Source of the DNA: Sphingobacteriaceae bacterium
GTDB taxonomy: Bacteria > Bacteroidota > Bacteroidia > B-17B0 > Aurantibacillaceae
Assembly (NCBI GenBank): GCA_002319075.1
Contig: NVQB01000001.1
Coordinates: 4,774,001-4,838,000, forward strand
Direction: 5' to 3'
Length of the DNA: 64,000 bases
Part shown: in pieces, positions 39,092 to 43,265 of the stretch
Layout of the letters: each line of letters opens with the position of its first letter
How positions within the stretch are numbered: the stretch's first letter is position 1
Program-made: the position numbers and the translations under genes
Notes under the pieces: model-generated
What the model was told of the DNA's origin: nothing
Seen by the model: the letters and a program-made list of their open reading frames with translations, nothing else
The model's database searches: none

Positions 39092-40429
39092 ATGATTAAA
39101 TACTTATTTATTATAATCAATTCATTCGGACTTTTTATTTATGGCTTATTTGCCGGTGACAATGGCATTACTGTTACCAGCAACATTCCTGCTAACCTTG
39201 TTGCAGGACAGGAAGTAACCATCGAATTAAAAGTGAATAAAGGTGGAATGAGTGGTTTTGCAAAATTACAATTAGAACTTCCTGAAGGTATAACCGTTAA
39301 AGCTGCCGATGACAAAGGCGCTAACTATAATTACAACGCAGGGATAGCAAAATGGGTTTGGCCTGCATTACCTATGGAAAGCGAAATTATTGTAAGCGTA
39401 ACTTTATTTGTTGAATCTTCTGCCTCAGGAACAAAGTTTATTGCGTCAAAATATTCTTACGTAGAAAATAATGTAAAACAGGTAGTGGAAATGAATCCGG
39501 TTGAAGTAAAGATTCTACCGCCTGGCTCAGATCCGGGAACGCCAGTTGCTACAAAAACCGAAACACCACTGAATGCAGATTCAGCAACCGTTACAACTTC
39601 CACACCGGTAGTGAATACGGGAGCTGAACCAGCCGGAAATATCACGGTTACAAGGGTAATCTCTGCAGGAACAACTGACAATGAATTTTTAATTACGCTA
39701 AAAATTAAGAAAGATGGAACTAAAGGATTTGCAAGATACAGTGATGATATTTCAGAAGGCATTATTGTAAAGGCAGCTAAAACAGATGGAGGTTCATTTT
39801 CTGTTGCAGATGGTAAAATTAAATTCGTTTGGGTAAATGTTCCTGAGAAAGACGAATTAGAAATCTCTTACACCATAAGCGGAAGCACCTCCAATGCTGT
39901 AGTTCTGGGGGGCGAATATTCTTATCTGGAAGATAATCAAAGCAAGAAATTTAAAGTTCCTATGGAAACTATCGCTTTCCAGACAAAACAAATTGCCGGC
40001 GAGGAAAAGAAAGAATCAAAACCCGTTGAAGTGAAGGATCCTGAAATTGTAATTCCTGCCACTGTTCAATCTGTGGAAGAAACTGTGGCTAAAAAACTTT
40101 CTGAAAGTAGCATGGAAACAACCATTGAGAAGAAAGATGGAACTATGAACTATATGGTTCAGGTTGGCGCTTTTACCAACGCTAATGTTACGGCTCAACG
40201 ACTAAAAAGAAAATTCAGTATTACCGAAACCATAAAGAGTGAATTGCATGAAGGTTACTCTAAGTTTATGATAGGTGCTCATTCAGAATACAAAACTGCG
40301 CGTAATCAAAGGGAAACGATGAAGTCGGTGAATGGTGTAAAGACTGCTTTTGTAGTTGCTTATAATCAAGGTAAAAGAATAACTGTACAGGAAGCATTAA
40401 TGATCACTAATCAAAAATGGTTTAAATAA
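39092..40429 (+). CDS. Exported SPOR-like domain protein with duplicated N-terminal domain
   Basis: An exported protein of 445 residues of unknown function. After an N-terminal hydrophobic segment (residues 1-21), two homologous domains follow at about 27-138 and 185-300; both share KGFA(K/R), a glycine-rich turn, G-I-VKAA, a K-VW-P/V strand and a YSY(V/L)E(N/D)N motif. The C-terminal 95 residues (about 351-445) resemble a SPOR domain, opening YMVQVGAFTN, which in known proteins binds denuded peptidoglycan. The ending ITVQEAL is shared with the next gene's ISIQEAM. The neighbour 34 bases downstream encodes a barrel protein with related modules; the two are probably one unit. Confidence 0.72.
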   Translation: MIKYLFIIINSFGLFIYGLFAGDNGITVTSNIPANLVAGQEVTIELKVNKGGMSGFAKLQLELPEGITVKAADDKGANYNYNAGIAKWVWPALPMESEIIVSVTLFVESSASGTKFIASKYSYVENNVKQVVEMNPVEVKILPPGSDPGTPVATKTETPLNADSATVTTSTPVVNTGAEPAGNITVTRVISAGTTDNEFLITLKIKKDGTKGFARYSDDISEGIIVKAAKTDGGSFSVADGKIKFVWVNVPEKDELEISYTISGSTSNAVVLGGEYSYLEDNQSKKFKVPMETIAFQTKQIAGEEKKESKPVEVKDPEIVIPATVQSVEETVAKKLSESSMETTIEKKDGTMNYMVQVGAFTNANVTAQRLKRKFSITETIKSELHEGYSKFMIGAHSEYKTARNQRETMKSVNGVKTAFVVAYNQGKRITVQEALMITNQKWFK

Positions 40430-40463
40430 AAAAAAAGCCTATTTTTACCGCATCAAAAAAATT

Positions 40464-43265
40464 ATGAAGAATCTGTTTCTTCTTACAATATTTCTTATTT
40501 CTTTATCCGTAAACGGACAAAATGGGTTATCCAGACAGGATAGTTTATTGAGAGCGCAACGCATTCAGGATAGTATCCGTGATCAGGAATTGCTCGATAT
40601 TCTGGGTCCAATTGAGGTTGAAAAACCGGTAATCCCGGTTCAAATTACACCTTCCGTTCAAATTACACCTCCCGTTCAAATTACCCCACCTGTAACGCCC
40701 AAAGACACTCTTAAACCGGTGGTTGCGCCCGCTGATACAACCAAATCAAAACCAGTAACACAACCTGTTATTCAGGTGCCTGTTGATACAGCCAAAGCAA
40801 AGCCTACTCAGCCTGTTGTGCCTCAAAAACAAGTAATAGACTCGGTAAAGCCAGTCATTACGCCACCTGATACAGCCAAAACAAAACCTGTTATACAAGA
40901 GCCTATAAAACCCGCCACGGTTATTGATAAACCTGTTCAACCAGACACTCCAGTGGTTAAAACTCCGGCGTACAGTTCCACGGTTGATCCCAGGTCCTTG
41001 CCTCTGGATAGTTTAACCGCTGACCAACTTTTACAGTACTATCAAACAGAGCCAGAACCTCCTGATTTTTATAAGGGACCGGATATTGGTGATTCTGTTT
41101 ATTATGTTTTGAATCCTATGACCATTCCAACCACCACTGTAAATGGAGAGGCTCTGAGCAGGCACGGTGACGGCACAGAGAGCGAAATTGAACAGGATCT
41201 GGATACGACAAATAGTGTTGAACAACGTCTTAAACCAAAAATCAGCATTGGTGTGGGGCGTATGGGCTTTAATGGAGATCTGTATAAAAAACATTTTCAA
41301 ACTTTGTCTATGGGACGTCCAGCTTTGGATTTAGCTATCTCTCACCGTATCACGCGTTATTTACAGCTCGATTTTAATGTGTTGTTTGGAAAACTTGGCG
41401 GAAATGAACGTCTCGATAACAGAAATGAAAATTTCAGATCAGAAATAAGAGCAGGCGGTGTTAATTTGGTATATGATTTTGGGAATTTTATCCCAAGCCA
41501 GTATAAGGTAAGGCCATTTATTAGTTTTGGAGCGTACGGATTTGAATTTTTAAGTAAAACAGATTTAAAAGATAAAAACGGTCGTACTTATTTTTATTGG
41601 AGCGACGGAAGTATTAAGGATATAGCAGAAGGTGCTCCGGAAGCTCAGAACGCAGTGGATCTTCAAAGGGATTACGTCTATGAATCCGATATTCGCGAAT
41701 TAAATAAGGATGGATTTGGAAAATATACCGAACGTGCATTCGCTTTTCCATTGGGCGCAGGATTCATAATGAAGGTCACAGATCGCGTTGATCTGAAATT
41801 AAATTTTCAATACTATTTCTCAACCACAGATTATATTGACGGTATTTCAAATAAGAGTTTGGGTGAGAGAGCAGGCTCCAAAAGCAGAGACAACTGGACA
41901 TATACTTCGTTTGCTTTGCAATATGATCTTATCGCTAAAAATAAACCTAAGTCAAGCAAAGCTCTCGATACTCTTAGTAATTCTGACTGGTTTGCGCTCG
42001 ATAACAGCGACTCAGACGAAGACGGTGTGCCAGATATGAAGGATGACTGCCAGGGAACTGCAAAAGGCGCGAAAGTAGATTTGAAAGGCTGTCCTGTAGA
42101 CGAAGATAACGATGGTATTCCGACTTACCGCGATGATGAGTTAACAACAGCTGCAGGCGTTCCTGTAAATGCGCGTGGTGTAGGACAAACAGATGATTAC
42201 TGGCAAAAATGGTATGACAACTATTTGAACGATTCTTTGGCCACGGATAGAACTACTGAAACAATTGGAAATATTTACGCTGCAGTAGCTAAGAAACCGA
42301 AAGAGAAAAAAGATAATTTTACTGTAGAATTAGTGAGATATGCAGGACCTATTCCTTCCGATGAATTGGCATTCTTATTAAGTATTGGAGATATTAATTC
42401 GGTAACACTCGACGACGGAACGACTGTGGTGTACACAAGCGGCACTTACGATAAATTGAGTACAGCCATCAAACGTCGTGATGAATTCAGGACTACTGGT
42501 AGTAAAGGAGCAGGTATATCGAGAATCAAAGGGAAAGAAATTGTTCAGGTGGGTGATGATGAACTTCAAAAACTGCTAGCTACTGAAATTGACGACCTGA
42601 TGAATGTGAATGTGAATGACAGTTCTGGTGTCAGCGCATCTGCCATTCTTCCTGAGGAAGCCGGTATTTTTGGAAAAGATGATGTGGTTTACCGTGTGCA
42701 ATTAGGCGCATTTAAAAATAAGATCTCTACAAAAGTATTTAATACAAGTGCCGGTGTACTTGAATTAAAAACAGGCGAGAATATTTACAGATATGTAACT
42801 AAAGGTTACAGAACTATTGGTGATGCTGCTGCAGTGAGAGCCGATTTAGTGGTTCAGGGTTACAGTGATGCGTTCGTAACAGCTTACAAAGGAGGTAAAC
42901 GCATCCCGATGAATCAAACAGGCGCCACTATGGAGGCTGGTTATAAAGAAGATTTAAGTGAGGATAAAACTTTTAACTCGATTGATAAAAAATTATTAGC
43001 ATTTAAAATTCAATTAGGACCATTGAAAAAACCTTCGCAAGAAGCTTCTATGGATGAAAAAGTGAAAGATCTGAAAGCTATTGACAAACAGACAACTGCT
43101 ACTGGAAACATTCGTTACACAGCAGGTGGAGAGTTTTCAAGGTTAGATACCGCTGAAAAATTAAGAAAAGAATTAGAAGATAAAGGTTACTCAGACGCGT
43201 TTATCATCGCCACTTTCAAAAATGAGATCATCTCAATACAGGAAGCAATGGAGTTACTCAAGTAA
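40464..43265 (+). CDS. Outer-membrane barrel protein with TSP3 and SPOR-like modules
   Basis: A 933-residue exported protein with a mosaic layout. A signal peptide (1-18) is followed by a Pro/Thr/Lys-rich linker (about 50-175) that contains an 18-base tandem repeat coding VQITP units. Residues about 255-490 look like an outer-membrane barrel (alternating aromatic strands, SFALQYDLI end). Next are thrombospondin-type-3 calcium repeats (DSDEDGVPDMKDDC, DEDNDGIPTYRDD; about 514-560). Three SPOR-like modules fill the rest (about 618-700, 742-830 and 845-933), with YRVQLGAFKN and FKIQLGPLK cores. The usual OmpA peptidoglycan-binding domain is absent and may be replaced by the SPOR modules. A bidirectional terminator follows. 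Confidence 0.72.
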   Translation: MKNLFLLTIFLISLSVNGQNGLSRQDSLLRAQRIQDSIRDQELLDILGPIEVEKPVIPVQITPSVQITPPVQITPPVTPKDTLKPVVAPADTTKSKPVTQPVIQVPVDTAKAKPTQPVVPQKQVIDSVKPVITPPDTAKTKPVIQEPIKPATVIDKPVQPDTPVVKTPAYSSTVDPRSLPLDSLTADQLLQYYQTEPEPPDFYKGPDIGDSVYYVLNPMTIPTTTVNGEALSRHGDGTESEIEQDLDTTNSVEQRLKPKISIGVGRMGFNGDLYKKHFQTLSMGRPALDLAISHRITRYLQLDFNVLFGKLGGNERLDNRNENFRSEIRAGGVNLVYDFGNFIPSQYKVRPFISFGAYGFEFLSKTDLKDKNGRTYFYWSDGSIKDIAEGAPEAQNAVDLQRDYVYESDIRELNKDGFGKYTERAFAFPLGAGFIMKVTDRVDLKLNFQYYFSTTDYIDGISNKSLGERAGSKSRDNWTYTSFALQYDLIAKNKPKSSKALDTLSNSDWFALDNSDSDEDGVPDMKDDCQGTAKGAKVDLKGCPVDEDNDGIPTYRDDELTTAAGVPVNARGVGQTDDYWQKWYDNYLNDSLATDRTTETIGNIYAAVAKKPKEKKDNFTVELVRYAGPIPSDELAFLLSIGDINSVTLDDGTTVVYTSGTYDKLSTAIKRRDEFRTTGSKGAGISRIKGKEIVQVGDDELQKLLATEIDDLMNVNVNDSSGVSASAILPEEAGIFGKDDVVYRVQLGAFKNKISTKVFNTSAGVLELKTGENIYRYVTKGYRTIGDAAAVRADLVVQGYSDAFVTAYKGGKRIPMNQTGATMEAGYKEDLSEDKTFNSIDKKLLAFKIQLGPLKKPSQEASMDEKVKDLKAIDKQTTATGNIRYTAGGEFSRLDTAEKLRKELEDKGYSDAFIIATFKNEIISIQEAMELLK

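Follow-up and report, generated by a model that had tools for sequence, protein, structure and literature searches.

A window of 64,000 nucleotides from a Sphingobacteriaceae bacterium (GenBank assembly GCA_002319075.1, contig NVQB01000001.1) contains two adjacent genes whose products, here called protein 1 and protein 2, join SPOR-type modules to immunoglobulin (Ig)-like domains and to an outer-membrane-type β-barrel, respectively. The two open reading frames (ORFs) lie on the same strand, are separated by 34 bases, and have the coordinates given by a first-pass annotation made from the sequence of the window alone (Table 1). That annotation described an adjacent pair with SPOR-like C-terminal modules and a shared QEA ending, and indeed, protein 1 carries ITVQEA and protein 2 carries ISIQEA. 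Structure prediction, one of the checks it proposed, was run for both proteins and returned the SPOR-type element order and an eight-stranded barrel.

Both proteins contain SPOR-type modules. In the predicted model of protein 2, three cores have the order β-α-β-β-α-β (residues 618 to 689, 742 to 809, and 845 to 918), in keeping with the three modules first annotated, and we call them modules 0, A, and B. The module of protein 1 has the same order of elements. Every core is followed by an extra strand, which in protein 1 and module B leads into a conserved helix containing the QEA motif, and each shared ending falls within this strand-helix addition. The Pfam SPOR family (PF05036) matched protein 2 at 29.6 bits, over the cutoff of 21, and matched 22 of the 23 aligned protein 2 members at an E value of ≤0.01. 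Moreover, modules 0, A, and B and the protein 1 module were mutually homologous by hhalign, with probabilities of 97.3 to 99.5% (99.4% for the protein 1 module against module A), whereas comparisons with the Ig domains or the barrel all fell below 3%. Profile matches to the solved SPOR domain of a sporulation-specific amidase (1x60) were weak for both protein 1 (E = 0.0036) and protein 2 (E = 0.026), as was the match of the protein 2 profile to FtsN (E = 0.069). SPOR structures were absent among the whole-model Foldseek and VIA rows shown, but those lists were filled by Ig-like domains for protein 1 and by the barrel for protein 2 and are uninformative about the modules.

The residues with which a SPOR domain touches the wall are largely kept. 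Glycan contacts in the RlpA-SPOR complex are made by the side chains of Q270, R302, and R309, and the RlpA domain does not bind glycan carrying stem peptides (PMC6895207). We assigned equivalents of Q270 and R309 by sequence motif, not superposition, and counted them across a locus scan that found 475 named loci with a relative of protein 1, the best 80 of which supply the cassette figures throughout; loci are numbered with the prefix L. Protein 2 counts come from 65 of 68 neighbors, those at L155 (from Perlabentimonas gracilis), L161, and L163 being left out for want of SPOR modules. The protein 1 module had the glycan Gln in 80/80 and Lys at the basic position in 80/80. Module A had the Gln in 65/65 and Lys or Arg at the basic position in 64/65, and module B had the Gln in 63/65 and Arg in 61/65. 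Because the 80-locus scan was seeded in the C-terminal motif, R429, Q433, E434, and A435 of protein 1 are bound to look conserved, and we draw no evidence from them.

The rest of protein 2 resembles an OmpA-type chain. Its model consists of a signal helix, a disordered Pro-rich stretch, eight barrel strands, a thrombospondin type 3 (TSP3) region, and the three modules. The barrel, as first annotated, is of the outer-membrane kind: VIA superposed it on the crystal structure of the OprF barrel with a Z score of 17.4 and a root mean square deviation (rmsd) of 2.4 over 134 residues, and on an integrative model of OmpA with a Z score of 17.9 (two-domain rows with an rmsd of >10 were disregarded). 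The calcium repeats claimed for the chain are also borne out, by a TSP3 match at an E value of ≤0.01 in 11 of the 23 aligned members and by the protein 2 profile, whose best Protein Data Bank match is the TSP3 region of 5wtl, an OmpA-family protein (E = 0.00022), although the window protein itself scored 14.6 bits, below the cutoff of 25. C529 and C543 are each Cys in 64 of 65 members. The Pro-rich linker that had been described is present here, but the long linker is missing from most of the 23 aligned orthologues and is not a general feature. Finally, the long loop joining strands 5 and 6, predicted to face outward if the arm is periplasmic, has a pairwise identity of 0.61, on a par with the best strands. 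It makes up 57 of 231 residues and accounts for 11 of the 25 near-invariant barrel columns when 110 barrel proteins are aligned. Outer loops of barrels are usually variable, and the conservation of this one makes a role as a partner site or lid likely, to judge from the alignment.

Table 1. Features of the gene pair, in coordinates of the window
Feature	Residues	Position	Strand	Basis
Protein 1 gene (445 amino acids): N-terminal helix, two Ig-like domains, SPOR-type module		39092..40429	+	
N-terminal hydrophobic helix, probably an uncleaved inner-membrane anchor	2-20	39095..39151	+	Model, cleavage motif counts, conservation
Ig-like domain 1	27-142	39170..39517	+	Model, VIA, hhalign
Ig-like domain 2	185-294	39644..39973	+	Model, hhalign
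SPOR-type module of protein 1, with Q357 and K391	352-440	40145..40411	+	Model, profile match, residues, hhalign
Protein 2 gene (933 amino acids): barrel, TSP3, three SPOR-type modules		40464..43265	+	
Signal peptide	About 1-19	40464..40520	+	Helix in model; cleavage-type motif ending in Q
Pro-rich disordered linker	47-173	40602..40982	+	Predicted local distance difference test (pLDDT) under 50
Eight-stranded β-barrel	258-488	41235..41927	+	Model, fold searches, NCBIfam PorG match
Long loop of strands 5-6, outward if the C-terminal arm is periplasmic	367-423	41562..41732	+	Conservation
TSP3-type calcium motif with C529 and C543, the only cysteines of protein 2	513-575	42000..42188	+	
SPOR-type module 0, glycan Gln mostly replaced	618-700	42315..42563	+	Model, residues, hhalign
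SPOR-type module A, best Pfam SPOR stretch	742-830	42687..42953	+	Pfam, model, residues
SPOR-type module B, C-terminal ISIQEAMELLK	845-933	42996..43262	+	Model, residues, hhalign

Protein 1 is probably anchored in the inner membrane. Its model (mean pLDDT, 82.6) comprises an N-terminal helix, two all-beta Ig-like domains, a disordered linker, and the SPOR-type module, here spanning residues 352 to 439. The two N-terminal domains had been noted as homologous and of no known type; hhalign confirmed the duplication (probability, 100%; E = 5.7e-40), and the model assigns them the Ig-like type. The best VIA fit of domain 1 was to a pilin Ig domain (Z score, 14.0; rmsd, 2.0; 122 residues), a resemblance that shows fold and not function. 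Both proteins had been called exported, and for protein 2 a signal peptide with a cleavage-type motif agrees, but protein 1 differs. An [AGS]/Q cleavage motif after the hydrophobic core was found in 3/80 protein 1 sequences versus 61/68 protein 2-type neighbors and 39/41 of the upstream barrel siblings described below, and a looser signal peptidase rule, with small residues at −1 and −3, fitted 61/68 and 33/41 of the latter two groups. Moreover, the first 22 residues of protein 1 have a pairwise identity of 0.37, like the Ig domains (0.39 and 0.37), whereas the signal and barrel regions differ in protein 2 (0.22 versus 0.53) and in the upstream sibling (0.26 versus 0.45). Asn occupies position 10 of protein 1 in 64/80. 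Because the usual cleavage motif is missing and the N terminus is conserved like the Ig domains, we read it as a probable uncleaved anchor.

The unit is a conserved cassette, often of three genes. The first-pass annotation suggested synteny as a check, and a barrel-TSP3 ORF lies within 1 kb downstream of protein 1 in 68/80 loci, with gaps of −13 to 475 bases; 65 of the 68 carry SPOR modules. A second barrel-TSP3 ORF lies 9 to 303 bases upstream of protein 1 in 41/80 loci, a sibling that the annotation, confined to the window, could not see. All 12 of the 41 sibling tails viewed by eye were of the EF-hand type, and Pfam EF-hand models matched both upstream siblings tested (L030:2919-4256 and L041:7540-8883); a third barrel ORF tested, from the L050 array, had no Pfam EF-hand match. 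We note that an EF-hand tail beside an Ig-like protein makes a dockerin-cohesin-like pairing conceivable. Other arrangements also occur. Five protein 2-like barrel ORFs with differing C-terminal ends flank a shorter protein 1 in each of two arrays (L049:1-9117 and L050:2548-11950), protein 1 is present in two tandem copies ahead of protein 2 in L132:438-3154, and a record titled Candidatus Saccharibacteria, perhaps mislabelled or a mixed assembly, has a protein 1 locus with the usual upstream sibling (L122). In the window, recX and a short-chain dehydrogenase gene precede the pair. A Bacteroidota-type promoter pattern occurred 67 times in the window versus 89 expected by chance and was dropped.

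Both proteins are common among near relatives. Within the genus of the window, protein 2 was matched in 33 of 36 other genomes at an E value of <1e-90 and protein 1 in 34 of 36 at <1e-40, and 67 of the 80 loci are in records titled Bacteroidetes, Bacteroidota, Bacteroidia, or Flavobacteriales, nearly all of them metagenome assemblies. More widely, a single-sequence Ig query matched 164 of 396 genomes of the class and 72 of 198 genera, one-Ig paralogues included, whereas an Ig profile matched 2 of 296 genomes of the phylum, one being the window's own; the two figures disagree, come from different samples with limited candidates per genome, and are both rough. Tallies of 54/60 and 58/60 from a sample of relatives include SPOR-only and paralogue matches. 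A paralogue of protein 1 in the window's own genome (L079:5998-7245, about 5,231,000) has one Ig-like domain and a SPOR match over the Pfam cutoff, and its sequence neighborhood reads as groES and groEL.

How such proteins might act is suggested by their parts. Computation shows which domains are present and how they are related, that the cassette is conserved, and that glycan-contacting residues are retained; a membrane location, glycan binding, cooperation of the two proteins, and septal action are our inferences. We tentatively propose, at somewhat less than an even chance, that proteins 1 and 2 form a tether between the outer membrane and the wall at denuded septal glycan, with protein 1 as the SPOR partner from the inner membrane. 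The barrel of protein 2 would sit in the outer membrane and fix a periplasmic arm, in which TSP3 could be a calcium-stiffened spacer, and the arm, through modules A and B, would grip peptidoglycan glycan that has lost its stem peptides, which is enriched where amidases act at the septum. Protein 1 would bind this type of glycan from the opposite side: its helix would lie in the inner membrane, followed by two Ig-like domains and then a flexible linker bearing a single SPOR module. Acting together, often along with the upstream barrel-TSP3 sibling, the two proteins would hold both membranes to the wall where it is being split, most likely as the cell constricts. The cassette may thus couple the layers of the envelope during division. 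As a conserved unit that fuses division-type wall modules to a barrel and adds a probable inner-membrane partner, it is a candidate that can be tested directly.

Several results weigh against this proposal. Protein 1 of the window has no Pfam SPOR match at an E value of ≤1, and only 3 of 31 aligned protein 1 members have one at ≤0.01. The Gln position of module 0 is Glu in 39/65 and Gln in 18/65, and the R309 position holds Thr, Val, or Ile rather than a basic residue; with the Gln mostly replaced and the basic residue lost, module 0 may not bind glycan, as far as these positions predict. At the level of the locus, 3 of the 68 downstream barrel neighbors have no SPOR module, and the adjacent barrel protein is absent at 12 of the 80 loci, 8 of which have >2.9 kb of downstream sequence. 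The looser signal peptidase rule still fits protein 1 in 28/80, and the shorter protein 1 relatives in L049 and L050 look cleavable, contrary to an anchor. The protein 2 model, with a mean pLDDT of 65.7 and a predicted template modeling score of 0.33, gives no domain arrangement. Finally, TolB_N matched none of the 60 genomes in the sample of relatives, own genome included, while the controls E. coli, Caulobacter, and Bacteroides ihuae matched, but TolB_N also failed to match 277 of the 296 phylum genomes, a sample in which the Ig profile was found in only 2. We therefore rejected the lack of TolB as specific support; it is background only and gives no link between the cassette and constriction.

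A general OmpA-type tether acting over the whole cell, in which SPOR merely substitutes for the OmpA domain, is somewhat unlikely. The nearest solved folds to the protein 2 barrel are indeed those of OmpA and OprF, and a protein of the window's own genome (L083) joins TSP3 repeats to an OmpA domain, its N-terminal part having no Pfam match. However, that genome contains 27 OmpA-domain matches that already offer the role, and a general tether fits poorly with the failure of the RlpA domain to bind glycan bearing stem peptides (PMC6895207). The first-pass annotation held that SPOR modules replace the OmpA anchor, which is so for the protein 2 chain only; as a general swap we rejected it, since the OmpA-domain set coexists. 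A second general anchor would seem unneeded beside 27 OmpA-domain matches, which would point instead to a specific site.

Alternatively, the modules could be SPOR-derived protein-protein interaction domains that build an envelope complex without binding glycan. The loss of the glycan Gln from module 0 in most members would fit, as would the extra strand after each core and the conserved QEA helix of protein 1 and module B, but the near invariance of the Gln and the basic residue in modules A and B and in protein 1 makes this quite unlikely. Least probable is that protein 2 is a PorG paralogue that serves gliding or type IX secretion and is held to the wall through its SPOR modules: the barrel matches the NCBIfam PorG model (E = 1.8e-11), a PorP/SprF-like ORF was seen by eye about 7 kb from protein 1 in 1 of 20 regions viewed (L038), and several of the 20 have ORFs that by eye end like type IX sorting domains, but protein 2 scores 44.2 bits against a cutoff of 130, a separate PorG over the cutoff and with a tail cysteine is present in the genome (2453550, 170 bits), and no type IX neighbor recurred by eye among the region listings viewed, few neighbors having been profiled. 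PorG is reported to form a disulfide bond with the GldK track, for which cysteines in its tail are important (PMC12635249), but the only cysteines of protein 2 sit in the TSP3 motif, leaving none in the tail for a bond to GldK/PorK. A gliding or type IX role is thus weakened.

Beyond the septal tether that we favor, the cassette might be a SPOR-based trans-envelope system of the Bacteroidia. Denuded septal glycan would be the meeting point of outer-membrane barrel proteins and an Ig-like protein of the inner membrane, and the system would take on the role of Tol-Pal in outer-membrane constriction, with the conserved outward loop and the EF-hand barrel partner as further working parts. We consider this wider scheme unlikely.

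Each part of the cassette has a known counterpart. OmpA and OprF pair an eight-stranded barrel with a periplasmic arm, a TSP3-type spacer in some members, and a C-terminal wall anchor; protein 2 resembles them in its barrel and predicted layout but ends in three SPOR-type modules and has no match to the OmpA domain (PF00691) at an E value of ≤1. The SPOR division proteins RlpA, FtsN, DamX, and DedD are lipoproteins or inner-membrane proteins, and modules A and B and protein 1 share their element order and glycan-contacting residues, but protein 2 differs in having three modules in tandem, and we know of no SPOR-domain division protein with an outer-membrane barrel. PorG has a related eight-stranded barrel, from which protein 2 departs by a score below the cutoff, no tail cysteine beyond the TSP3 pair, an added TSP3 and SPOR arm, and a different long loop.

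PorE is a proposed tether between the outer membrane and the wall in Bacteroidetes, with TPR, propeller, carboxypeptidase-type, and OmpA-like domains and no barrel (PMC12204202). The proposed role is common to PorE and protein 2, but none of the TPR, propeller, carboxypeptidase-type, and OmpA domains matched protein 2 at an E value of ≤1. A 2,129-residue protein of the window's own genome (L078:4478-10867, about 4,497,500 to 4,503,900) has SPOR (32.4 bits) and PD40 matches over the Pfam cutoffs and matches below threshold to TPR and carboxypeptidase-type domains. By eye it ends in three SPOR-type modules, a PorE-like layout with SPOR in place of OmpA. Given such a chain, anchors of the SPOR type may exist as a second set alongside those of the OmpA type. 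We note that ORFs of 2,000 to 2,450 amino acids matched the SPOR part of protein 2 in 26 of 36 congeners, among the matches listed.

OmpM of diderm Firmicutes likewise joins an outer-membrane barrel to a wall-binding part, but it is a porin that forms trimers and binds polyaminated peptidoglycan through its stalk, and the available part of its description names no SPOR (PMC10628300). Among the titles and abstract openings listed from the open-license literature, subscription papers not being covered, we found no barrel-SPOR protein of Bacteroidota described, and the cassette is apparently undescribed. The parts are of known kinds; we know of no earlier case in which they are combined in one predicted outer-membrane chain alongside a probable partner in the inner membrane.

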